NCBI GenBank assembly: GCA_026392845.1
Contig: JAPLBJ010000017.1
Location: 1 to 64,000 of the forward strand
From: Actinomycetota bacterium
GTDB lineage: Bacteria; Actinomycetota; Actinomycetes; Nanopelagicales; Nanopelagicaceae
Direction: 5' to 3'
Length of the DNA: 64,000 bases
The notes beneath the pieces were generated by a model. The model did not search any database and had not been told where the DNA came from. It worked only from the letters and a program-made list of their open reading frames with translations. Made by a program: the position numbers and the translations under genes. Below, one piece after another: positions 2,764 through 21,410 of the stretch. The first letter of the stretch is position 1. Each line of letters starts with the position of its first letter.

Positions 2764-4113
2764 GTGGAAAAACCAGTAGCTAATCCAGAACTCGGCGCGC
2801 AGGTCTATGCAGATGATCGCGCAAATGTTTTTCACTCGTGGTCGGCGCAAAAACAGATTACGCCCATGGCTATTTCTGGAGCACAAGGTTCATACTTCTG
2901 GGATTACGCCGGTAAGAGTTATTTAGATTTTTCATGCCAATTAGTATTTACAAATATTGGCCATCAACATCCTACTGTTGTAAAAGCTATTCAAGAACAA
3001 GCAGCGGTACTAACAACCGTTGCACCGCAACATGCCAATATTGCGCGCAACGAAGCAGCAAAGCGAATTATTGAAGTTGCAAATGGCGGATTCGAAAAAG
3101 TATTTTTCACTAATGCCGGAGCTGATGCAGTAGAGAACGCAATTCGCATGGCGCGTATTCACACAGGAAGACATAAAATTCTCTCTACTTACCGTTCGTA
3201 TCACGGCAATACTGGCTCAGCAATTACCGCTACTGGTGATCCACGTCGATTCCCAAATGAATTCTCATTCGGTCACGTTCACTTCTGGGGTCCATATCTT
3301 TATCGCACAGCATTCTGGGCAACTAATGAAGCAGAAGAATGCCAGCGAGCGCTAGAACATCTTGAGCAGACAATTATTTTCGAAGGCCCAAAAACAATTG
3401 CGGCAATTCTTATTGAGAGCGTCCCAGGCACTGCAGGTGTATTAGTGCCACCTGTTGGGTATCTAGATGGAATTCGTGCCCTCTGCGATAAGTACGGCAT
3501 TCTCTGGATTAGCGATGAAGTAATGGCTGGCTTTGGCCGCACAGGCAAATGGTTTGCATACCAACACAGCAAATCAACTCCTGATCTCATTGTCTTTGCT
3601 AAGGGTGTTACCTCAGGTTACGTACCACTTGGTGGAGTAATTATTTCTGGTCCAATTGCTGCAACATTTGACGAAAGAGTATTTCCTGGTGGACTCACTT
3701 ATTCTGGTCACCCGTTAGCGTGCGCAACAGCTGTTGCAACCATTGATGTCATGAAATCAGAGAAAATGATTGAAAACGTTGCATCTATCGGCGAGAAGAT
3801 TATTGGTCCAGGACTTCATGCAATTGCCAAAAAACATCAACTAGTCGGCGATGTTCGCGGGCAAGGTGGTTTTTGGGGATTAGATATCGTTACTAATCGC
3901 GCTACCCGCGAGCCAATTGCTGCATATGGTGGATCAAGTCCTGCCATGAATGAAATTGTTGCGACATGTAAAAAGAATGGTTTGATGCCATTCAATAACT
4001 TCAACCGAATTCATATGAATCCACCATTGAATATCAGTGAAGCTGACGCTCAATTAGGAATGGATCTCTTGGATAAGTCGCTAGGTGAAATGGCACATCA
4101 CTACAAGGGATAA
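2764..4113 (+). CDS. class III PLP-dependent aminotransferase (omega-amino acid--pyruvate type)
   Basis: This 449-residue fold-type I aminotransferase starts at a GTG preceded by AAAAGGGG, a good ribosome binding site. Recognisable parts are FTNAGADAVENAIRMAR (about 115-131), the cofactor-binding Asp251 in ISDEVMAGFGRTG and the Schiff-base Lys280 in VFAKGVTSGYVPLGG. The family transfers amino groups from beta-alanine, taurine, putrescine or similar omega-amines to pyruvate or 2-oxoglutarate, giving semialdehydes. It is divergent from mmsA with an 88-bp gap. Beta-alanine to malonate semialdehyde to acetyl-CoA is therefore a reasonable inferred route. The exact amino donor cannot be read from the sequence. 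An ABC transporter ATPase follows 9 bp later. Confidence 0.85.
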   Translation: MEKPVANPELGAQVYADDRANVFHSWSAQKQITPMAISGAQGSYFWDYAGKSYLDFSCQLVFTNIGHQHPTVVKAIQEQAAVLTTVAPQHANIARNEAAKRIIEVANGGFEKVFFTNAGADAVENAIRMARIHTGRHKILSTYRSYHGNTGSAITATGDPRRFPNEFSFGHVHFWGPYLYRTAFWATNEAEECQRALEHLEQTIIFEGPKTIAAILIESVPGTAGVLVPPVGYLDGIRALCDKYGILWISDEVMAGFGRTGKWFAYQHSKSTPDLIVFAKGVTSGYVPLGGVIISGPIAATFDERVFPGGLTYSGHPLACATAVATIDVMKSEKMIENVASIGEKIIGPGLHAIAKKHQLVGDVRGQGGFWGLDIVTNRATREPIAAYGGSSPAMNEIVATCKKNGLMPFNNFNRIHMNPPLNISEADAQLGMDLLDKSLGEMAHHYKG

Positions 4114-4122
4114 ACTTCTGGT

Positions 4123-5888: not shown

Positions 5889-6712
5889 TAATTAGCGCAG
5901 CAGTTGCTATTGCCGAAGCGCGTCGCGGGCGATTAGGAGAGCGCGTTTACTCTGGGCGTTCTCGCGCAATCTTTGAACGCGGTTACATTGCATTCAAATC
6001 TTCTACCTGGATGGTGATCCTCTCTGGATTCGTTGAACCCGTGCTCTACCTCTTTGCTTTCGGTTATGGTCTTGGAGAGTTGATTGGCAATATTGAAAGT
6101 AATGGCTTGAGCATTCCTTATGCCGCATACATCGCACCAGCGCTCCTTGCCACAAGTGCCATGAATGGCGCGATTTATGACTCCACTATGAACATCTTCT
6201 TCAAACTCAATCATGATCGTATTTATCACGGCATGCTTGCAACATCACTTGGTCCACTAGATGTTGCACTTGGTGAAATTGGGCTAGCACTGCTTCGCGG
6301 TTTTCTTTATGGAGTTGGATTCATGGCCGTTGTCGCACCACTCGGATTGATTCCGAGTTTATGGGGAATCTTGGCGATTCCGGCTGCAGTACTTATTGCA
6401 TTTGGTTTTGCGGCTGTTGGTATGGCACTTACTACTTATATGAAATCTTTTCAGCAATTAGAAATAATTAATATCTTTTTGCTTCCTATGTTTTTATTCT
6501 CTGGTTCTTTTTATCCACTTTCTGTTTTCCCAGAGTGGTTACAATTTATTATTAAGGCACTACCGCTTTCACAAGCAATCCACTTAGTTAGAGGACTTAC
6601 TCTAGGGCAGATAAATATTGGACTTTTAGGCCATATTTCCTATTTTATTGTCATGATTGTTGTCGGACTTTTTTTCACAACAAAAAGATTAAATGCACTT
6701 TTTATGAAATAA
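5885..6712 (+). CDS. ABC-2 type exporter permease, second subunit
   Basis: This 275-residue permease is related to the preceding one but clearly diverged. It shares the family pattern of VEPVLYLFAFGYGLGEL near residue 55, IAPALLATSAMNGAI, and the late signature LLPMFLFSGSFYPLSVFPEW with a following LPLSQAIHLVRG. It is the last gene of the exporter operon, entered through an ATGA overlap. A 12-nt inverted repeat with a 4-nt loop (ATGCGT/ACGCAT, 6726-6741) lies just downstream but lacks a T-tract, so I do not call a terminator there. Substrate unknown. Confidence 0.88.
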   Translation: MIISAAVAIAEARRGRLGERVYSGRSRAIFERGYIAFKSSTWMVILSGFVEPVLYLFAFGYGLGELIGNIESNGLSIPYAAYIAPALLATSAMNGAIYDSTMNIFFKLNHDRIYHGMLATSLGPLDVALGEIGLALLRGFLYGVGFMAVVAPLGLIPSLWGILAIPAAVLIAFGFAAVGMALTTYMKSFQQLEIINIFLLPMFLFSGSFYPLSVFPEWLQFIIKALPLSQAIHLVRGLTLGQINIGLLGHISYFIVMIVVGLFFTTKRLNALFMK

Positions 6713-6847: not shown

Positions 6848-8251
6848 ATGCAAAAAATGAAAACCCACGCTAACCATGCGCAAACGTTTAGATCAGTACC
6901 CGCAACATCCGAGCCGTTATCAGTAACAAAAATACAGGCCCTGTTAGATCAAGAATGGGCGCGCTTTAAAGAAAACACTTCAGCCTCTGAAAAAGAGAGT
7001 GCTCTCGCGCTTCGAACAATGCCCATGGGTGTTCCTTCCAGCTTTCAACATTGGGATCCATATCCAATCTCAATCGTTTCAGCACAAGGTGCGTGGATGA
7101 CAGATGTTGATGGACGTCGCTTACTCGACCTATCAATGGGCTTTGGAGCAATGCTCGCTGGCCACCTAAACCCAGTTGTTGTGGCCGAAATTGAGGCATC
7201 TCTGAAAGAGGGAATGCTCTTCGTTACACCATCTCCAATTTCTCGCGATGCAGGCGAACGTATCTGTAAGCGTTTTTCTATTGACCAAGTTCGTTTTGCA
7301 AACTCTGGTACGGAAGCCACAATGTATGCAACTCGTCTTGCTCGCGCATATTCTGGAAAGAATGGCGTCGTAAAGATTGAGGGCGGATACCACGGATCAT
7401 TCGACCCACTTATGGTCTCTGCAAAGCCAGCACTCGATGAAGCCGGCGATGCGCAATCACCTAATGCTATTGCTTACATCGGAACAGTTCCTGGTGATGT
7501 CTATGTTGTTCCTTACAACAATCTTGTTGCTTTAGAGACAGTATTTGAAGAGCATGCAAAAGATATTGCCTGCTTTATTCTCGAACCTGTCCTAGAAAAT
7601 ATTGCAATTGTTCTCCCAGATGCTGGATACCTTGAGGGCGTTCGCGCACTCTGCGATCACTACGACATCATTCTTATATTTGATGAAGTAAAAACAGGAC
7701 TTACTGCTGGACCACAAGGTGCAGCGCAACGTCTTGGTGTTCAACCAGATCTGATCACACTTGCTAAATCAATTGGCGGTGGAGTTCCACTTGCAGCTTT
7801 TGGTGGCAAGAAGAAGTACATGGATGCAGTAGCCGATGGCCGTCTTGCACACTTCGGTACTTTCAACGGCAATCCACTAGCAATGGCTGGTGTACGTGCA
7901 GTTGATAAAATCTGTACAGATGAGGCACTTGCACATGCAGAAGCTCTAAACATGCAGGCACTTGAACGTATTACGCAAATTATTGAGCACTACCAATTAC
8001 CAGCACACACTGTTGGTTTTGGCGTAAAAGGTTGCATAACATGGTCAACGCTGCCCGTGCGCAACTACCGCGATTACAAAGCAACTAATTTCAAAATCGC
8101 AGAGCTCTCATGGCTCTGGTCCCTCAATCGTGGAGTAATTACGCCTCCAGGACTCGATGAACAATGGTTGATCTCTTTGGCGCACGGCCAAGAAGAGATT
8201 GATATTTTGGTAGAAGATTTCCGCAGTCTTGCGGAAGCGCTACGTAGCTAA
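6848..8251 (+). CDS. glutamate-1-semialdehyde aminomutase-like class III aminotransferase
   Basis: This PLP enzyme (about 467 residues) resembles glutamate-1-semialdehyde 2,1-aminomutase. Counting from the ORF-track TTG, it has FANSGTEATMYATRLAR (154-170), the PLP-binding Asp283 in IFDEVKTG and the catalytic Lys311 in ITLAKSIGGGVPLAAFGG. The stretch KSIGGGxPLAAFGG is close to HemL. However, the ~50-residue N-terminal extension and the diverged C-terminal half (GVKGCITWSTLPVRNY) point to an HemL-like aminotransferase of another role. The ORF track begins at TTG 6836, inside a hairpin arm. I prefer ATG 6848, with GGA seven bases upstream; ATG 6857 is also possible. It has no close operon partner, so the substrate is unresolved. 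Confidence 0.8.
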   Translation: MQKMKTHANHAQTFRSVPATSEPLSVTKIQALLDQEWARFKENTSASEKESALALRTMPMGVPSSFQHWDPYPISIVSAQGAWMTDVDGRRLLDLSMGFGAMLAGHLNPVVVAEIEASLKEGMLFVTPSPISRDAGERICKRFSIDQVRFANSGTEATMYATRLARAYSGKNGVVKIEGGYHGSFDPLMVSAKPALDEAGDAQSPNAIAYIGTVPGDVYVVPYNNLVALETVFEEHAKDIACFILEPVLENIAIVLPDAGYLEGVRALCDHYDIILIFDEVKTGLTAGPQGAAQRLGVQPDLITLAKSIGGGVPLAAFGGKKKYMDAVADGRLAHFGTFNGNPLAMAGVRAVDKICTDEALAHAEALNMQALERITQIIEHYQLPAHTVGFGVKGCITWSTLPVRNYRDYKATNFKIAELSWLWSLNRGVITPPGLDEQWLISLAHGQEEIDILVEDFRSLAEALRS

Positions 8252-8284: not shown

Positions 8285-9358
8285 TTAGGGAATTAGCGAA
8301 ACCTTAATTGATTCGTTTCCCGCCGAAACCATATCTAGTCCTTTTTGGAAATCTGCCAAAGGAAGTTGATGAGTACAGATTTTATCCAAGGGTAATTTCC
8401 CTGATTCAATCATGGCAATTGCGGCTGGCCAGCAATGTGGACCAAGATGAGCACCAAGAAGATCGAGTTCTTTATCATCGCTGATAATGCTCCAGTCGAC
8501 AGTGACATCTTCTTTGAAAACACTGTACAAAACAAAGGTTCCAAGTTTGCGCAAGATTTGTAGTCCTTGTGCCACGGCGCTTGGGTGGCCAGTGCCCTCT
8601 AAGTAGATATCTGCGCCATATCCTTCGGTCAATTCTCTAACTATCTCAATCGCATTTTCGCGACCGATATTGATAGTAAGAGTTGCGCCGCATTCTTTTG
8701 CAACTGCTAATTTACGATCATCTAGGTCTAAAGCAATGAGAATTGCAGGTTTCTTCACAGCAGCGCCAGCAATCATTCCAAGACCGATGGGACCACACCC
8801 AGCAACAACAACTACATCTGTATTCTTAATCTTTGCGCGTTCAACAGCGTGAAGTGCGCACGACAATGGTTCTGCATATGCAGCATGCGCTGGTTTTACA
8901 CTTTTAGAAATTTTGTGAACGCGAGAATGCGTAGAAAAAATCATGTACGAAGCCATTGCACCAGGAGTTTTTCTTTTGAATCCAAAAATCCCGTGAGGTG
9001 CGCACATCCAATATTCACCACGTTTGCAGTAACGACACTCTTCGCAAGGAACAATCTGTTCTGCGACAACTCGGTCCCCAACTACTACTCCCCAACGCTT
9101 GCTTGCTTCTTCATCAATTTGTGCAATCTCGCCAACGAATTCATGTCCTGGAATTACTTCAGTTTCAGCATATGCAGGTCTATTGGCATCTCCCCAAAAC
9201 TTTGATGCACCGTGATAACACTTCAAATCGCTAGCGCAGATACCCACTGCTTCTACTCTTACAAGTGCTTCACCTTTAGTTGGCGTAGGTATTTCAACAT
9301 CCTCTAACTTGTAATCCATCGGACCATGACATACGACTGCCTTCATTGTTGGGCTCAT
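8285..9358 (-). CDS. eltD: zinc-dependent polyol dehydrogenase, probable erythritol/L-threitol dehydrogenase
   Basis: This 357-residue medium-chain dehydrogenase carries catalytic zinc ligands Cys41 (GICASDLKCYHG), His72 and Glu73 (IPGHEFVG). Four structural zinc cysteines are at 105, 108, 111 and 119, and the NAD site is VVVAGCGPIGLG. Segments such as KFWGDANRPA, EQIVPCEEC, PGAMASYM and VDWSIISDDKELDLLGAHLGP closely resemble, from memory, mycobacterial EltD, which oxidises erythritol and L-threitol to erythrulose. It is the last gene of a four-gene minus-strand run with a TIM-like isomerase, an RpiB-like isomerase and a dihydroxyacetone-kinase-like enzyme, the same set as the mycobacterial tetritol pathway. 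The substrate is inferred from this combination. Confidence 0.78.
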   Translation of the reverse strand: MSPTMKAVVCHGPMDYKLEDVEIPTPTKGEALVRVEAVGICASDLKCYHGASKFWGDANRPAYAETEVIPGHEFVGEIAQIDEEASKRWGVVVGDRVVAEQIVPCEECRYCKRGEYWMCAPHGIFGFKRKTPGAMASYMIFSTHSRVHKISKSVKPAHAAYAEPLSCALHAVERAKIKNTDVVVVAGCGPIGLGMIAGAAVKKPAILIALDLDDRKLAVAKECGATLTINIGRENAIEIVRELTEGYGADIYLEGTGHPSAVAQGLQILRKLGTFVLYSVFKEDVTVDWSIISDDKELDLLGAHLGPHCWPAAIAMIESGKLPLDKICTHQLPLADFQKGLDMVSAGNESIKVSLIP

Positions 9359-10611: not shown

Positions 10612-12330
10612 TCATTTTCCTTCCAAAAAATTAGCAATTGTAGAAATAATCATTGCTAGTGACGTTGCGCCTGGATCTTGATGGCCCAAACTTTTTTCCG
10701 CATGCGGGCGCGCGCGGCCGATTTTAGGAAGAAGATTTGCAGTCTCTGCGGCGGCACCTGTTGCCACATTGCTTGCACTGCGCCAGGCTTCTGGAAGTTC
10801 TTTCCCGGCTGCTTTACTTAGTTCTTTTGAGAATGGGATAAGTACATCTACAAGCGTCTTATCGCCAATCTGCGCTTTTCCAAATTTAGTGACTTCCGCA
10901 GATGCTCTAGCAATCGCACTGGCTACTACTTGCGCTGATGGTTTTACAGAATCACCAAATTCTTTACCAATTTCTCGAAGAATAATTCCCCAGATAATTC
11001 CTGAGGTTCCTCCTGCTTTATCAGACCAAGAATCTGCTGCCGCTTCAAGGGTGGATCCAGCACCTGCGCCAGCAGCTACAACTTCTTTTCCTGCAGTTGC
11101 TGCTGCGTGTGCCCCGCGTGCCATACCGATTCCATGATCACCATCGCCTGCATAGGAATCTAATAGTCCATATTCATCTGCTCGCTGGGCTGTATTCGTT
11201 TCGATGAGTTGCAAAATTTTCGCAATATTTTTAGCGCACTCGTGTGATTCGGAACTTCCTTTAGAAATTACTTTCTTCTCTTCTCGTGAAGAATTCACTT
11301 GAGATGAAGCAGAACTTAGAGAGATAGTGCCTTTTTTATACCCTGGTGTATACGTTGGCTTCTTCCAAAATCCTTCTTGCTCCTCATTGAGCCATGTAAA
11401 AGTAAGTGATGCCCCCGCCATTTCAAAGCTAGTAACAAGCTCACCGATTTCTGGTTCGACGATTTCAATATTCTTTTCTTTTAGCAGCGCAAAAATATTA
11501 TTATAGAGAACATAGAGTTCCTCATACTTCACGCCACCTAGACCATTAACCAATACGCAAAGACGAGTCTTTGAGTCATTGCGACAGGAATCAGGAGTTT
11601 CATCCAATAAGTGAGTAACAAGTTCTAGAGCTAATTCTTTTGAAGTTGGTATATCACTTTCACTAAGGCCTGGTTCACCATGAATACCTAAGCCAAGTGC
11701 CATTCGTCCCTTTGGAACCGTAAATAGCGGTTCCGTTTTGCCTGGCAAAGTACAACCAGAGAATGCAACACCAATAGTGCGAGTGCGCTCATTTGCTTCA
11801 ACGGCAACTCTATAAACCTCATCGAGTGAATAACCTGCCTCAGCAGCGGCGGCGGCAACTTTGAATACAAATAGATCGCCAGCAATTCCTCGGCGCTTAT
11901 GAAATTCCTCTTTACTCGCGCTCATAATGTCATCTGTTACAAGGACAGTTTTGCACGGGATGCCTTCGTCATTGAGTTGTGATTGCGCCAAATTAAAATT
12001 CATGACATCGCCAGCATAATTTCCATAACTCAATAAAACTCCGCCGCCTGCTTCCGCAGCTTTACAGACAGTGTGTACGCGCTGTGTCGATGGTGAAGAA
12101 AAAACATTTCCGACAACTGCGCCATGGGCTAAACCTGGGCCCACAATTCCAGCAAATGCTGGGTAATGTCCCGAGCCACCACCAATAACAACAGCAACAT
12201 GACCTTTTGTTTTCTCTTGATTTCTAACAACGCCACCTTGCACTCGTCTTACTAGATGAGAGTGTGCAGCTACGAATCCTTCTGTGGCTTCATCAACAAA
12301 ATCCTCGGGATCATTTAGTACGTATGGCAA
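10612..12330 (-). CDS. lerK: DhaK-DhaL fused ketose kinase, probable L-erythrulose 1-kinase
   Basis: This 572-residue ATP-dependent kinase joins a DhaK substrate domain (about 1-330) to a DhaL nucleotide domain (about 370-572) through a Ser-rich linker. The DhaK part has [13 protein letters not shown] (49-61) and His217 in GIHGEPG, the residue that binds the ketone as a hemiaminal. The DhaL part has the Mg-ADP binding [16 protein letters not shown]. Such fusions phosphorylate dihydroxyacetone, and in mycobacteria LerK phosphorylates L-erythrulose. It is the first gene of the minus-strand tetritol operon and is divergent from an SDR gene, with about 108 bp between the preferred starts. No PTS partner (DhaM) is seen, which agrees with the ATP-dependent type. 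Confidence 0.8.
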
Positions 12331-15803: not shown

Positions 15804-17084
15804 TTAAATCCCTGCAATCTCACATGCTTGACTGCGCTCGATGACTTTGCGACGGGGTTTGCCCGCCTTTTCGCCTTCAGCCACTTCATGTGCGTTCAAC
15901 TTCTCCCACGCACTTTGATCTATATGTTTTTTGCCTGCTAATAATTCAGCAATATCTGTTGAATTCTTTGGCGCGTGTAGTTGAGTAACTAATTTTTCTA
16001 TAACTGCAGCTGCATCTGATTTATTTGTGCCGATAACACCAGATGGCCCGCGCTTTGCCCAACCAACAACATAAATATTATCTTTTACATGTCCCTCTTT
16101 ATTTAGAACTTTTCCACTTTCGTATGGAACTCCATCAATTCCTGCAGCCTGATAACCGATTGCCGTAATTACTAAACCACAAGGAATTGTTACTTCTCCA
16201 TTTGGGGTGGAATACGTAATCGATTCAACACGATCAGTGCCGTTGATAGATATAGGTGTGTGCTGAAATAAAAATTCAATAGTTCGCGCATGACCTTTAT
16301 TTTCAAGACCAGCAATGAGTAGCATCGCATCCAAATTACTCTTCACATCTTTTTCGGGCGAATCCCCTGCGCGCGCAATTGCGCCATTGATATCACTCTT
16401 ATTCATAAGAACATTTGTATGTTCTAGTTTTGGAAGTTCACGCAATTCTGGCGAAGTAAATGCAGCATGTTCGGCGCCTCGGCGAGCACTTATATAAACC
16501 TTACGTATTTTGCTCTCTTTGAATATTTCAAGTGCGTGATCTGCCGTATCTGTTGGGTCTAATTCACTGGGTTCAAGTGCAAGCATTCTGCCAACATCCA
16601 TAGCAACATTTCCGGCGCCAATAACTATTGCAGTCTTGCAATCTAGTGGCACAAAAAGATTGGCAAAATCTGGATGGCCGTTATACCAAGGTACAAAATC
16701 AGCAGCCGATAAAGAACCCGGCAAATCTTCTCCTGGAATTCCTAATTTTTTACCGATCGCAGAACCAGTGGCAATTACTACTGCATCATATTTTTCTTGT
16801 AGCTGATTAATAGTTACATCACTGCCCAGCTCAATATTTGCAAACAATCGAAAATTCTCAGTTGTTGCAATTTTCTCAAAAACCTTAGAGACGCTCTTAA
16901 TTTTGGGGTGATCTGGTGCAACCCCTGAGCGAACAAGCCCCCATGGTGTTGGAAGTCTTTCAATCATGTCGATTGAGAATTGAAGTTCGGGTGTTTCTAA
17001 ATTCTGCAGTGCTAGCGCAGCAAAGTAACCTGCAGGTCCTGCGCCAACGATTACCACTTTATAGGTGGGCACGTTAGACCTCAT
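15804..17084 (-). CDS. fprA: FprA-type ferredoxin/adrenodoxin--NADP+ reductase
   Basis: This 426-residue flavoprotein moves electrons between NADPH and a ferredoxin. It has the FAD dinucleotide fold VIVGAGPAGYFAALAL (11-26), the family segment RSGVAPDHPKIKSVS, and an NADP fold VIGAGNVAMDVGRML. GPSGVIGTNKSDA near the C-terminus is typical of adrenodoxin-reductase-like FprA enzymes of actinobacteria. It lies between GH3 and a zinc alcohol dehydrogenase on the same strand, with short gaps. No ferredoxin gene is adjacent, so its partner is elsewhere. Annotators may also call it an FAD-dependent oxidoreductase or glutamate-synthase-like small subunit; the residue pattern favours FprA. Confidence 0.85.
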   Translation of the reverse strand: MRSNVPTYKVVIVGAGPAGYFAALALQNLETPELQFSIDMIERLPTPWGLVRSGVAPDHPKIKSVSKVFEKIATTENFRLFANIELGSDVTINQLQEKYDAVVIATGSAIGKKLGIPGEDLPGSLSAADFVPWYNGHPDFANLFVPLDCKTAIVIGAGNVAMDVGRMLALEPSELDPTDTADHALEIFKESKIRKVYISARRGAEHAAFTSPELRELPKLEHTNVLMNKSDINGAIARAGDSPEKDVKSNLDAMLLIAGLENKGHARTIEFLFQHTPISINGTDRVESITYSTPNGEVTIPCGLVITAIGYQAAGIDGVPYESGKVLNKEGHVKDNIYVVGWAKRGPSGVIGTNKSDAAAVIEKLVTQLHAPKNSTDIAELLAGKKHIDQSAWEKLNAHEVAEGEKAGKPRRKVIERSQACEIAGI

Positions 17085-17117: not shown

Positions 17118-18158
17118 CTACATCGTTGAATTATCAATAACAAAGCGATAGCGCACATCACTGGCTACAACTCTGTCGAATGCTTCATTGATATAGCTGG
17201 CTGGAATAACTTCAATTTCTGGCAAAACATTATGCTCGCCACAGAAATTGAGCATGTCCTGAGTTTCTTGTACTCCAGAAATGAGTGAAAGCGTGAATAC
17301 ACGTTGCTTAGAAACTCCAACACTTGTAGATAATGAAACTGTAGGAGTTGGATCGGCGCCAATTACAACAAATGCTCCATCAAATTTGAGCAATTCATAA
17401 TAACCAGCTGTATCTACAGTCACACTTACCGTGTTTAGAATAAGATCAAAATTCTCTTTTAGTGAAGCAAAGGCGTTTGCTTCCATTTTATGAAATGCAA
17501 ATGCACCCATTTTTAGAGCATCCTCTTTTTTCTTATCAGAATGGGACAAAATCGTAACTTCGGCGCCCATTGCTTTCGCTAACTTCAAACCAACATGTCC
17601 TAATCCACCAAATCCAATGATCGCAACTTTCTTACCTGGGCCAGCATTCCAACGCTTGAGCGGCGCCCACAAAGTAGAACCTGCACATAACAACGGTGCA
17701 GCTGCATCGAGTGGAAGATTTTTCGGAATAGAAACTACAAAATTATGATTTATTACAGCAGATTGTGTGTAACCACCTTGTGTGACAGTTCCATCGCGAT
17801 CAGTTGATCCATATGTAAAGATTGCGCCGTTTTGGCAGAACTGTTCGTGACCAGTTTTGCATGGTTCACAGTTCAGACAAGAATTAACTAGGCAACCCAC
17901 ACCAACATGATCACCGATTTTAAACTTTGTTACATTTTTTCCAACTGCCGTTACTTTTCCAGCAAGTTCATGGCCGGGAGATAATGGATATGTTTGCTTG
18001 CCCCACTCACCACGAACTGTGTGAATATCGGAGTGGCAGATACCGCAAAAAAGTACATCGAATTGCACATCATCTGGACCAACGTCGCGTCGATCAACCA
18101 TTGTTGCAACTAGTGGAGCACCTTCTGAGGGCGCTGCATATGCTTTTACTTTTGTCAT
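17118..18158 (-). CDS. zinc-dependent NAD(P) alcohol dehydrogenase (cinnamyl-alcohol/YahK type)
   Basis: This 346-residue medium-chain dehydrogenase reduces aldehydes or oxidises alcohols. The catalytic zinc site is Cys41 (FCGICHSD) with His63-Glu64 (SPGHELAG). Structural zinc cysteines are at 94, 97, 100 and 108 (CLNCEPCKTGHEQFC). The nucleotide fold is IIGFGGLGHVGLKLAKAMG. The pattern GICHSDIHTVRGEWG places it with the YahK/cinnamyl-alcohol dehydrogenase branch, which usually uses NADPH. AAGGAG sits just before the ATG. The 5' leader directly upstream is made of a decayed tRNA-Ser 5' half (18171-18224), an unusual junction described separately. Confidence 0.9.
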   Translation of the reverse strand: MTKVKAYAAPSEGAPLVATMVDRRDVGPDDVQFDVLFCGICHSDIHTVRGEWGKQTYPLSPGHELAGKVTAVGKNVTKFKIGDHVGVGCLVNSCLNCEPCKTGHEQFCQNGAIFTYGSTDRDGTVTQGGYTQSAVINHNFVVSIPKNLPLDAAAPLLCAGSTLWAPLKRWNAGPGKKVAIIGFGGLGHVGLKLAKAMGAEVTILSHSDKKKEDALKMGAFAFHKMEANAFASLKENFDLILNTVSVTVDTAGYYELLKFDGAFVVIGADPTPTVSLSTSVGVSKQRVFTLSLISGVQETQDMLNFCGEHNVLPEIEVIPASYINEAFDRVVASDVRYRFVIDNSTM

Positions 18159-18170
18159 TGTGGCTCCTTA

Positions 18171-18224
18171 GGACCTTACCTTGTGAGCGGTTAGGCACAC
18201 CAGACCAGGCTATTCGACATCTTA
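18171..18224 (-). pseudogene. decayed 5' half of a tRNA-Ser(GCT)
   Basis: These 54 bases align without gaps to positions 19539-19592, the 5' half of the intact tRNA-Ser(GCT), with 41 identities by hand count. They cover the acceptor 5' strand, D-arm, anticodon arm and the start of the variable arm. The GCT triplet is kept, but the base before it has changed to C and two anticodon-stem pairs are lost. No variable arm, T-arm or acceptor 3' strand follows. The copy is in direct orientation to the intact gene, 1.3 kb away, and forms the leader of the alcohol dehydrogenase gene. Confidence 0.8.
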
Positions 18225-18264
18225 TGTAAGTGCCTATTCTACAGGGGTACTGGATACTTATCTT

Positions 18265-19479
18265 ATGGTGCCTTGGCGTGGAGCGATGCTGGATATCTCC
18301 CGACATTATTTTGATAAAGATTTTATAAAAAAGACGATGAGCGCCCTGGCGCTTTTTGATTACAACGTACTACACCTACATTTGACAGATGATCAGGGTT
18401 GGAGATTCGAAAGTAAAAAATTTCCTCTTCTACATGAAGTGGGATCGCGCCGCCTCAAGAGTCAAATCAGTCATTCTTTACAGCCTCAAGAATTTAAATA
18501 CCAAGTCCATGAAGGTTTTCTAAGCCAGGCTGATATAAAAGAAATTGTTGATCATGGTAAGTCGCTCAAGATTGATGTCGTCCCAGAAATTAATATTCCG
18601 GGACATACAGGTGCCCTTCTAGCCGCATATCCCCAATTCGGAGTAAATAGAGAAACAGTTGAGGTGAGTGGAGGGTGGGGAATATCGAATCATCTTCTAA
18701 GACCTTTCCCTGATACATTCGAGTTTTTGCGCGAATTGTTTATGGAAGTCAGTTCAGTTTTTCCTTCTGAATATATACACGTTGGCGGAGACGAATCCCT
18801 CATTGATAACTGGTTAAAAGATCCTGAAATTGTTTCCTTCATGAAGGAACGAGAATTCTCTACACCAAAAGAGCTCTTTATTTATTTTATGAAAGAGATT
18901 GAAGTAATTATAAATACTCTTGGTAAGAAGATGATTACGTGGGATGATGCATTTGCCTTCAACCCAAGTCAAGCAACTCACGCGACAGTTATGTCATGGC
19001 GTGGAGCAGATATCGCTAAGACTGCAATGGAACATGGCCGCAACGTAATTTTGTCCCCAGTCTTCCCTACATATTTTGATTACTCACAAGAACTTTCTGA
19101 GTCGGAGCCACTTGCAATCGGGGGACCTGTCACTTTGGAAGATGTTCTCTCTTTTAAACCAACCGATGGCGTGCTTGGAGTTCAATGTCAGATTTGGTCC
19201 GAATATATAGAGAACCCATCTCATCTTGAATATATGATGTGGCCTCGAGCTGCAGCTTTAGCATTTGCAGCATGGGGTGATGGCGATAATTTTATGCAAT
19301 ATTTCAACGAGCGTCGGGCAGATTTAGATTCTCTCGGCATCACTATCCGTGAAATAGAGCCTCTTCAAAGAAAAAACATCGGTGATCTCGGTGTCGGCAA
19401 ATATCACCCGGGCTATCCCATTACATCTATGATGCAAAAACTTGAAGAATCGGCGGCAAGTGGCGAAGTTGCGCATTAG
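18265..19479 (+). CDS. GH20 beta-N-acetylhexosaminidase, catalytic barrel only
   Basis: This 404-residue protein matches the catalytic TIM barrel of family 20 hexosaminidases, which release terminal GlcNAc/GalNAc. It starts directly at the barrel (PWRGAMLDISRHYFD), then LHLHLTDDQGWR (36-47), VVPEINIPGHTGA, and the catalytic pair Asp176-Glu177 in HVGGDESLIDNW. WGDGDNFMQYFNERR is near the end. The ~100-150-residue GH20b domain that normally precedes the barrel is absent, and no good ribosome binding site precedes ATG 18265. The open frame runs back only to a TGA inside the tRNA remnant. The gene may be a truncated import or a naturally short form; the active site looks intact. Confidence 0.82.
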   Translation: MVPWRGAMLDISRHYFDKDFIKKTMSALALFDYNVLHLHLTDDQGWRFESKKFPLLHEVGSRRLKSQISHSLQPQEFKYQVHEGFLSQADIKEIVDHGKSLKIDVVPEINIPGHTGALLAAYPQFGVNRETVEVSGGWGISNHLLRPFPDTFEFLRELFMEVSSVFPSEYIHVGGDESLIDNWLKDPEIVSFMKEREFSTPKELFIYFMKEIEVIINTLGKKMITWDDAFAFNPSQATHATVMSWRGADIAKTAMEHGRNVILSPVFPTYFDYSQELSESEPLAIGGPVTLEDVLSFKPTDGVLGVQCQIWSEYIENPSHLEYMMWPRAAALAFAAWGDGDNFMQYFNERRADLDSLGITIREIEPLQRKNIGDLGVGKYHPGYPITSMMQKLEESAASGEVAH

Positions 19480-19503
19480 CGCACAATGCAAAATAAATAA
19501 GAG

Positions 19504-19592
19504 CGGAGACGAGGAGATTTGAACTCCTGAAGGCTTTTAGACCTTACCTCGTTAGCAGTGAGGCGCACTCGACCGGGCTATGCGACGTCTCC
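19504..19592 (-). tRNA. tRNA-Ser (GCT anticodon)
   Basis: This is an 89-nt class II tRNA on the minus strand. The acceptor GGAGACG pairs with CGTCTCC, the anticodon loop CTGCTAA gives GCT, a long variable arm follows, and the T-arm carries GGAGTTCAAATCTCC. The A31-C39 position of the anticodon stem is mismatched, leaving four pairs. CCA is not encoded. Its 5' half is duplicated in decayed form at 18171-18224. A small TGCGC/GCGCA hairpin overlaps the neighbouring GH20 stop, without a T-tract. Confidence 0.95.
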
Positions 19593-19642
19593 AAGTGGTG
19601 GCTGTAGTTTACATCTAATTTCTACTCGCAGTATCCTGCCGT

Positions 19643-19957
19643 ATGACTTATGAACTGCGAATTTACACAGCGAATCCAGGAAAAATCGACGCACTCTGTG
19701 CCCGCTTTAGAAACCACACCGTTGCCCTTTTTGCCAAACACAATATGGAAAGCATCGGTTATTGGCTTGAAGATGCACACACAGATGTATTGACCTACGT
19801 CATTAAACATTCTGGAGATCCGGCTAAGAATTGGGAAGCATTTATTGCTGATCCTGTGTGGATTGCTGCAAAGGATGCATCAGAAGTTGATGGACCACTT
19901 GTTGAATCAATTGATTCGCGTTACATGACATCAACTGATTTCTCTGCATTGAAATAG
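19643..19957 (+). CDS. NIPSNAP-family protein
   Basis: This 104-residue protein has the NIPSNAP ferredoxin-like fold pattern: YELRIYTANPGKIDAL at the start, then a helix with RFRNHTVALFAKHNM, then IGYWLEDAHTDVLTYVIKH. The family is widespread and its biochemical role is poorly defined; members are small dimeric alpha-beta barrels. It lies 19 bp before the Xaa-Pro aminopeptidase gene on the same strand, so the two probably share a transcript. No catalytic residues can be named. Confidence 0.82.
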   Translation: MTYELRIYTANPGKIDALCARFRNHTVALFAKHNMESIGYWLEDAHTDVLTYVIKHSGDPAKNWEAFIADPVWIAAKDASEVDGPLVESIDSRYMTSTDFSALK

Positions 19958-19976: not shown

Positions 19977-21410
19977 ATGAGCGCTGAAGAGAAGAAGTCT
20001 GGCCGAGTTTATGATGTAGAGCCATCACAGCTCTATGCAGAATTTATGAAAACTGGTTGGGCTCCATCTCCACTTCATGGAATAACTCCAGATGATGTTG
20101 CAACATATGCCTTCTCGCGACGTCAAGCACTCTCAGCAGCATTTCCAGGAATGCGTTTAATATTGCCTTCCGGAAATTACAAAGTGCGCAGCAATGACAC
20201 TGATTATCTCTATCGTCCACATTCAGCTTTTGCTTATTACACAGGTGTGCAGGGCGTCGAGGCAACGGCGGACGCTGTCTTGGTAATGGAACCAAGTGGT
20301 GATTCACATGAACCGATTCTTTTTATAAATCCTCGCTCAACTCGCGATACCGATGCATTTTATAAAGATGCGCGCTACGGAGAATTATGGGTTGGCCGCC
20401 GCTTTACTCTTGAAGAGGCACAGGCTCGATATCAAATCGCAACTCGCAAAATTAGTGAATTAGAAGCCTTCTTAGCTAAAGATAAAGGCGCTCTTGTTAT
20501 TCGCAATCAAGATACATTGATTGATTCAATTATAAGTAAGAATGTTCGCGATGACGAGTTAGCTAATTTCACATCGGTGCATCGTATGATCAAAGATGAT
20601 TATGAAATTAAAGAGATGCAACGAGCGATCGATGCAACACATTCAGGTTTTAACGACATTATTCGTGCACTTCCAGCAGCTGTTGAAACACCTCGCGGAG
20701 AAAGAGTTGTTGAGGCTGCTTTTTATGGTCGTGCGCGTATTGAAGGTAATGATCTCGGCTATAACACCATCGCGGCCTCTGGTGCGCATGCCTGCGTACT
20801 GCACTGGACTCGAAACGATGGCGCAGTTCGAAATGGCGAACTCATTCTCATTGATGCTGGAATAGAGATGGATTCTTATTACACAGCAGATATAACAAGA
20901 ACTTTGCCAGTGAGTGGAAGGTTTTCTCCGGAGCAGCGCGCGCTATATATGTTGGTATATCGAGCTCAGCAAGCAGGCTTTGATGCAGTAAAAGCTGGTG
21001 CAGATTTTCTTGATATAAATCGTGCTTGCCATCGTGTTATTGCACAAGGGCTACATGATTTAGGAGTTCTAACAGTTAGCGTCGATGAATCCATGCAACC
21101 AGAAATTGGTTTACACCGTCGTTGGACACTTCACGGTGTAAGCCACATGTTAGGCATGGATGTTCATGACTGTGCGCAAGCGCGTAAAGATCAATATACC
21201 GAAGCAAAACTTCGCGCAGGAATGATTTTGACTGTTGAACCAGGCTTCTACATTCAACCTGATGATGAATTATTCCCACCTGAGTATCGTGGTATCGGAA
21301 TTCGAATTGAAGATGATGTTCTGGTTACCGAGGATGGTTACATAAATCTAAGTACGAATATTCCTAGTCATCCAGATGAGATTGAAGATTGGATGCAATC
21401 TCTACGCTAA
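19977..21410 (+). CDS. pepP: Xaa-Pro aminopeptidase (M24B)
   Basis: This 477-residue metallopeptidase removes an N-terminal residue that precedes proline. The N-terminal AMP_N domain (about 30-180) includes RLILPSGNYKVRSNDTDY. The pita-bread domain carries the di-metal ligands: Asp in LIDAGIEMDSYYTADITRT (two Asp), His in HGVSHMLGMDVHD, Glu in TVEPGFYIQ and Glu in GIRIEDDVLVT. The full family length is present. It probably follows the NIPSNAP gene in one operon. Its 3' end overlaps the convergent crcB gene by 9 bp. Confidence 0.93.
   Translation: MSAEEKKSGRVYDVEPSQLYAEFMKTGWAPSPLHGITPDDVATYAFSRRQALSAAFPGMRLILPSGNYKVRSNDTDYLYRPHSAFAYYTGVQGVEATADAVLVMEPSGDSHEPILFINPRSTRDTDAFYKDARYGELWVGRRFTLEEAQARYQIATRKISELEAFLAKDKGALVIRNQDTLIDSIISKNVRDDELANFTSVHRMIKDDYEIKEMQRAIDATHSGFNDIIRALPAAVETPRGERVVEAAFYGRARIEGNDLGYNTIAASGAHACVLHWTRNDGAVRNGELILIDAGIEMDSYYTADITRTLPVSGRFSPEQRALYMLVYRAQQAGFDAVKAGADFLDINRACHRVIAQGLHDLGVLTVSVDESMQPEIGLHRRWTLHGVSHMLGMDVHDCAQARKDQYTEAKLRAGMILTVEPGFYIQPDDELFPPEYRGIGIRIEDDVLVTEDGYINLSTNIPSHPDEIEDWMQSLR

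Follow-up and report, generated by a model that had tools for sequence, protein, structure and literature searches.

The locus around tRNA-Ser(GCT) in the window, the whole stretch of 64,000 nucleotides analysed here from the genome of a small freshwater-type actinobacterium (G000), belongs to the known tRNA-linked flexible genomic islands. It harbours a single GH20 gene as cargo, and on the far side of this cargo lies the decayed 5′ half of a second tRNA-Ser copy, an unusual side for a 5′ remnant. Along the strand of the tRNA, the gene order is M24 peptidase (antisense), NIPSNAP (antisense), tRNA-Ser, GH20 (antisense), the 5′-half remnant, adh, FNR, GH3 and tRNA-Arg. The features of the locus are as follows.

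15804..17084, minus strand: ferredoxin-NADP-reductase-like gene (FNR), ancestral 3′ neighbour of the tRNA in the genus; about 20-26 nt past the tRNA in L085, L088, L120 and L125.
17118..18158, minus strand: adh, zinc alcohol dehydrogenase (PF08240/PF00107), distal border of the variable segment.
18164..18169, minus strand: ribosome-binding site AAGGAG of adh, seen in the sequence just downstream of the remnant.
18171..18224, minus strand: remnant of the second tRNA-Ser copy, 5′ half (tRNA nt 1-53), with a homologous remnant in G003 and G006.
18236..18241, minus strand: putative -10 hexamer TAGAAT of the remnant, facing adh; function proposed from the sequence.
18265..19479, plus strand: GH20 beta-N-acetylhexosaminidase, short form, cargo gene (PF00728, 2.9e-93; HVGGDE motif present).
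19503..19592, minus strand: intact tRNA-Ser(GCT) gene (ARAGORN; Rfam RF00005, 47.5 bits), identical in G003, G006, G143 and G035.
19606..19611, minus strand: putative -10 hexamer TAAACT of the intact tRNA, likewise proposed from the sequence.
19643..19957, plus strand: NIPSNAP gene (PF07978), proximal flank, found in G003, G006, G035 and G143.
19977..21410, plus strand: M24 peptidase (domain match; genus loci), ancestral 5′ neighbour of the tRNA in the genus.

The remnant and the 5′ half of the intact gene (19539-19592) align without gaps and in the same orientation, with 41 of 54 positions identical, exactly the count made by hand in an earlier note on this DNA; all 41 matches fall within 51 nt. 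GH20 is the sole gene between the two copies, as that note had also stated, and the distance between them is about 1.3 kb. Neither ARAGORN nor Rfam called the remnant as a tRNA. The Smith-Waterman score of tRNA-Ser against the whole adh-GH20 intergenic region, which measures 106 nt and is half filled by the remnant, was 33. Among 5000 dinucleotide-preserving shuffles of this region the mean score was 8.7 (sd 1.6, maximum 23), and none reached 33, so that the repeat passes the shuffled-sequence test which the earlier note had named. The same remnant is present in G003 and G006, with 88% identity to the tRNA.

Relatives of the locus were searched in 135 genomes of the genus. The relatives come from actinobacterial MAGs, taken to be of freshwater origin from their isolate names; most of the genomes are draft MAGs, and the completeness of G143 is 74%. 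Among the 135 genomes, only five have a close homologue of adh, namely G000, G143, G003, G006 and G035. Two related species, G003 and G006, show the same arrangement of tRNA, GH20, half tRNA and adh as the window, and the other two do not, so that the case of all relatives sharing it, which the earlier note had named as refuting its reading, does not arise. In G035, adh lies about 30 nt after one complete tRNA-Ser, lacks the remnant and has its ribosome-binding site directly following; this junction was obtained by joining two contigs over an identical overlap of 149 nt. Judged by its gene order, G035 is the empty site, with adh beside an intact tRNA-Ser, that the earlier note had proposed to look for. 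G143 is the closest relative of the window (FNR with 94% nucleotide identity), and possesses M24-NIPSNAP-tRNA intact on one contig and adh-FNR-GH3 on another. Its homology to the window ends at 19503, the 3′ end of the tRNA, and resumes at 18167, the joint of remnant and adh leader, and genes other than GH20 adjoin each border. The segment between tRNA and adh is thus a replaceable cassette space.

Some further observations were made in these relatives. The adh gene of G035 carries ATC in place of the ATG start codon on both overlapping contig ends (L098 around 60, L099 94), possibly a start-codon loss or an alternative start. G035 also possesses a sugar-use island of 10.7 kb (L098 285-11003) on the 5′ side of the tRNA, between the tRNA and NIPSNAP, with what look by eye like parts of an ABC transporter, a glycosidase gene and an MFS-like gene; no tRNA fragment was detected at its far end. 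Two public MAGs titled Bifidobacterium breve (L108, CAMDHH010000019.1, and L109, CAMCCH010000051.1) belong to the genus of the window, and these titles look like misassignments, being implausible for a genome of 1.3-1.4 Mb.

The adh leader CCTAAGGAGCCACAAT is common to G000 and G035. In G035, tRNA nt 90 and then a spacer of 19 nt that includes a T-run precede it; the joint in G000 is directly to tRNA nt 53. Compared with G035, the window therefore lacks 56 nt, of which 37 belong to the tRNA and 19 to the spacer. The fragment is explained best by duplication of the tRNA followed by decay, which the earlier note had offered as its alternative, since the comparison with G035 reads as a second copy minus about 56 nt.

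A likely history of the locus is one in which the tRNA copy came with the GH20 segment or was duplicated by it, the copy on the adh side decayed, its promoter and 5′ half were kept as the adh leader, and the segment passed between species. The ancestor would have had adh directly downstream of tRNA-Ser, as G035 still does. A GH20-bearing segment would then have arrived with a copy of tRNA-Ser, or have duplicated the tRNA, most likely by recombination at the tRNA-Ser hotspot, resulting in the order tRNA, GH20, tRNA, adh. The copy on the NIPSNAP side would have retained its native promoter flank and remained functional, and the redundant copy on the adh side would have been shortened by about 56 nt, comprising tRNA nt 54-90 together with the T-run, and then drifted. 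Its promoter and 5′ half would persist as promoter and 5′ leader of adh because adh otherwise would have no upstream region of its own. Recombination would later have carried the segment comprising GH20 and the remnant from one related species to another. Two complete tRNA-Ser copies on either side of GH20 were seen in none of the genomes, and it is for this reason that the once complete second copy is something that we infer.

Silent divergence was used to follow the transfer of the segment. Between G000 and G003, divergence at 4-fold sites is 0.21 in GH20, 0.46 in FNR, 0.47 in M24, 0.53 in NIPSNAP and 0.36 in adh, and the lower value of GH20 differs from FNR, M24 and adh with Fisher p = 1e-6, 2e-7 and 0.005, respectively. 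The silent divergence of GH20 is about half that of its neighbours, which indicates that GH20 moved between lineages; on these site counts, GH20 and the flanking remnant are younger in these lineages than the common ancestor, or have been exchanged since. The divergence of adh is uneven, with 0.30 between G000 and G035 compared to 0.62 for FNR. In the body of the remnant, 12-13 of 53 sites differ between G000 and G003/G006, similar to the silent sites of GH20 (0.19-0.21), which argues for neutral decay with no constraint on the remnant.

GH20 is present in ten of the 135 genomes, and only G000, G003 and G006 among them show the arrangement with remnant and adh. In four of the other seven GH20 genomes, the gene is located on the far side of FNR (protein identity 67-69%), near tRNA-Arg wherever tRNA-Arg is on the same stretch. 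GH20 relatives outside the clade of the window (L110-L113) were not beside tRNA-Ser on the stretch examined. A truncation of GH20 by the insertion was considered and rejected: relatives at 63-70% identity begin at almost the same place, with MMxWRGAMLD. The gene lacks the N-terminal domain found in most solved GH20s, and by comparison with these homologous sequences it is a normal short form. A compositionally alien origin finds no support in the GC content (0.423, compared to 0.420-0.442 in the neighbours); GC3 is somewhat higher (0.356, compared to 0.288-0.304). The main proposal of the earlier note, an insertion or duplication at the tRNA with GH20 as cargo, is thus supported by the empty site in G035, the other cargo in G143, the presence of GH20 in few genomes and its reduced silent divergence.

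The remnant lies wholly inside the 5′ leader of adh, and AAGGAG starts 2-3 nt past it. Its likeness to the tRNA gene probably extends to the promoter further upstream, where the resemblance to the native tRNA promoter is only loose. The hexamer TAGAAT is located 17 nt before remnant nt 1, the position matching TAAACT of the intact gene, and its counterparts are TAGAAT in G006 and TAGGAT in G003; most tRNA-Ser(GCT) genes in the genus have TARACT at the same offset as TAAACT. A sigma-70 consensus scan detected no sigma-70 site at the putative -10 of the remnant, and the putative promoter shows a divergence of 0.18-0.20 over 40 nt, with no visible constraint. By its position, the remnant promoter may drive adh. 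In the genus, the start of FNR is often 20-26 nt past the tRNA, and adh in G035 is placed much the same; given this short spacing, genes behind tRNA-Ser(GCT) are probably transcribed from the tRNA promoter, which would explain the survival of the promoter half.

The arrangement of the window clade, in which a promoter-like hexamer and a 5′ stub are followed 3-25 nt later by the start of a codirectional gene, recurs in G074, G099 and G112, there with TARACT as the hexamer. Insertions might repeatedly fuse the tRNA promoter and 5′ stub to a protein gene, which would make the site a landing pad that supplies its own promoter to integrase-less cassettes moved in trans; we regard this extension as unlikely. 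If true, cargo or neighbour genes would be transcribed from the promoter of an essential tRNA.

Across the genus, tRNA-Ser(GCT) is an island hotspot and a recurrent landing site of cassettes. Fragments of anticodon-arm and variable-arm types, both 5′ and 3′, flank different cargo, in one case with an integrase; partial tRNA matches cut by contig ends (G107, G111, G132, G136, G140, G144 and G035 C71) were left out of the survey. Most genuine attachment fragments break at the anticodon arm. In G063 (L100 4935-13133), a 5′ fragment (nt 1-47) is followed by an HTH gene, a tyrosine integrase (phrog_1, 5.6e-19) and then the intact tRNA. This element also carries two DNA methyltransferases, and its integrase was missed by Pfam and found by PHROGs. 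Other 5′ fragments were found in G108 (nt 1-47) and G074 (nt 1-41). In G002, G079, G097 and G125, 3′ fragments from nt 30 are preceded by an arm of about 45 nt that is almost unchanged from genome to genome (aactggttaaataagcgtagatgagaga..aaccctgcagt), which places the crossover in the anticodon arm; the cargo differs among these four genomes despite the shared arm. No recombinase beyond one or two of Xer size was detected in them, so that the attachment arm occurs without its integrase. A second crossover, in the variable arm, is seen in G139 and G150, where 3′ fragments from nt 48 lie behind an almost identical 60-nt arm. The positions of these elements are given below.

L102 (G002) 7395-7455; L104 (G079) 1410-1470; L161 (G125) 10760-10820; L162 (G097) 633-693: shared arm of about 45 nt.
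L159 (G150) 6578-6620; L160 (G139) 4076-4118: variable-arm fragments, about 1.6 kb downstream of the intact tRNA.

Two loci of the genus have a more complex structure. G112 possesses three tRNA-Ser copies in a row on L158, a 5′ fragment 1-70 (3717-3786), the intact gene (6901-6990) and a 5′ fragment 1-51 (9177-9227), the last of which has the same wrong-side geometry as the remnant in the window. In G002, the intact tRNA-Ser on L103 (7027-7406) is followed by the first FNR codons only and then by unrelated sequence, and a different contig has the full FNR, located behind the 3′ fragment; part of this flanking gene may have been brought along by the incoming element.

Besides the history proposed above, the tRNA gene could simply have been duplicated in tandem on the spot, and GH20 could have entered between the two copies afterwards in a separate event; this would lead to an identical end state. 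GH20 can move within this neighbourhood, as its presence in seven other genomes of the genus indicates, in four of them across FNR near tRNA-Arg. However, no relative was seen with a cargo-less tandem pair of tRNA-Ser, and remnant and GH20 co-occur in three of three genomes with similar divergence, which makes independent arrival unlikely.

Still less probable is a single site-specific integration at the 5′ half or anticodon arm of tRNA-Ser, with GH20 as the leftover and the 5′ fragment as the displaced attachment end. Elements of this kind exist in the genus, as in G063 and G074, and 5′-fragment islands are known (159 of 3919 in Islander, PMC4383910). After integration, a displaced 5′ fragment comes to lie upstream of the tRNA that has been regenerated, and Islander rejects 5′ fragments that are downstream (PMC4383910); in the window, however, the fragment lies downstream of the intact tRNA. 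It also reaches nt 53, past the anticodon arm (nt 30-46), and the cargo is one gene of 1.2 kb. No integrase is hidden at the locus, since the phrog_1 matches of the genome are its only two recombinases, both of Xer size and on other contigs. The suggestion in the earlier note that the 5′-half copy could be an integrase footprint thus fails on side, extent and the lack of a nearby integrase. The remnant in the window ends at nt 53 and lacks the attachment arm of the 3′ fragments of the genus. Two complete copies could also arise in two steps, if a 3′-type element landed in the displaced 5′ fragment of a 5′-type element and thereby restored the first complete tRNA.

The remnant could also be a functional tRNA-like leader regulating adh, e.g. 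by binding a tRNA-processing or aminoacylation factor, and in agreement with this, the 5′ leader of adh contains the whole of it in three species. Nevertheless, it folds no better than shuffled sequences (z 0.48), Rfam does not recognise it, its stem pairs are broken and it diverges at a neutral rate. The regulatory fold was ruled out by Rfam and the folding score, a literature search for tRNA-derived leaders returned nothing relevant, and such a function is very improbable. Chance similarity, for which no point was counted in favour, retains practically no probability and is counted as refuted by the shuffles and by the identity in G003 and G006.

Decay of a second tRNA copy beside GH20 can be compared with known systems. 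Cassette exchange at tRNA genes with partial tRNA repeats is known from streamlined aquatic bacteria, namely actinobacteria (Ca. Actinomarinales, PMC7771536) and methylotrophs (fGI-2 of Ca. Methylopumilus, PMC10872708). Similar to these additive flexible genomic islands, small cassettes turn over beside the tRNA, partial-tRNA direct repeats are present and cargo differs between close relatives (GH20 in G000, G003 and G006, other genes in G143, none in G035), as at many loci of the genus; transfer of cassettes between lineages, also a feature of such islands, is reflected in the silent divergence of GH20. In contrast to them, the window repeats the 5′ half beside GH20, beyond the cargo as seen from the intact tRNA, and this half is now the leader of the next gene.

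With the tDNA islands of Islander (PMC4383910), the locus shares an intact tRNA and a fragment of the same tDNA in direct orientation that bracket the cargo. However, Islander places 5′ fragments upstream or 3′ fragments downstream, with an integrase within the island and a length of 2-200 kb, whereas in the window the 5′ fragment is downstream, only GH20 lies between the copies and the length falls short of this range. Other loci of the genus fit the Islander definition well. Tycheposons, as far as PMC10872708 describes them, were found in Prochlorococcus, and have a tRNA border and a tyrosine recombinase gene in the island. By that description, the window has in common with them the tRNA-anchored exchange of cargo in streamlined aquatic bacteria, and differs in its one-gene cargo and in having no recombinase between tRNA-Ser and FNR.

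The locus clearly records gene turnover linked to a tRNA, of an ordinary kind. It shows that part of a tRNA next to cargo does not on its own amount to an integrase footprint; what decides is which half remains and on what side it lies. A tRNA-Ser(GCT) cassette hotspot is documented across a genus of small-genome actinobacteria, in which a displaced tRNA copy can become the probable promoter and leader of the adjoining gene.
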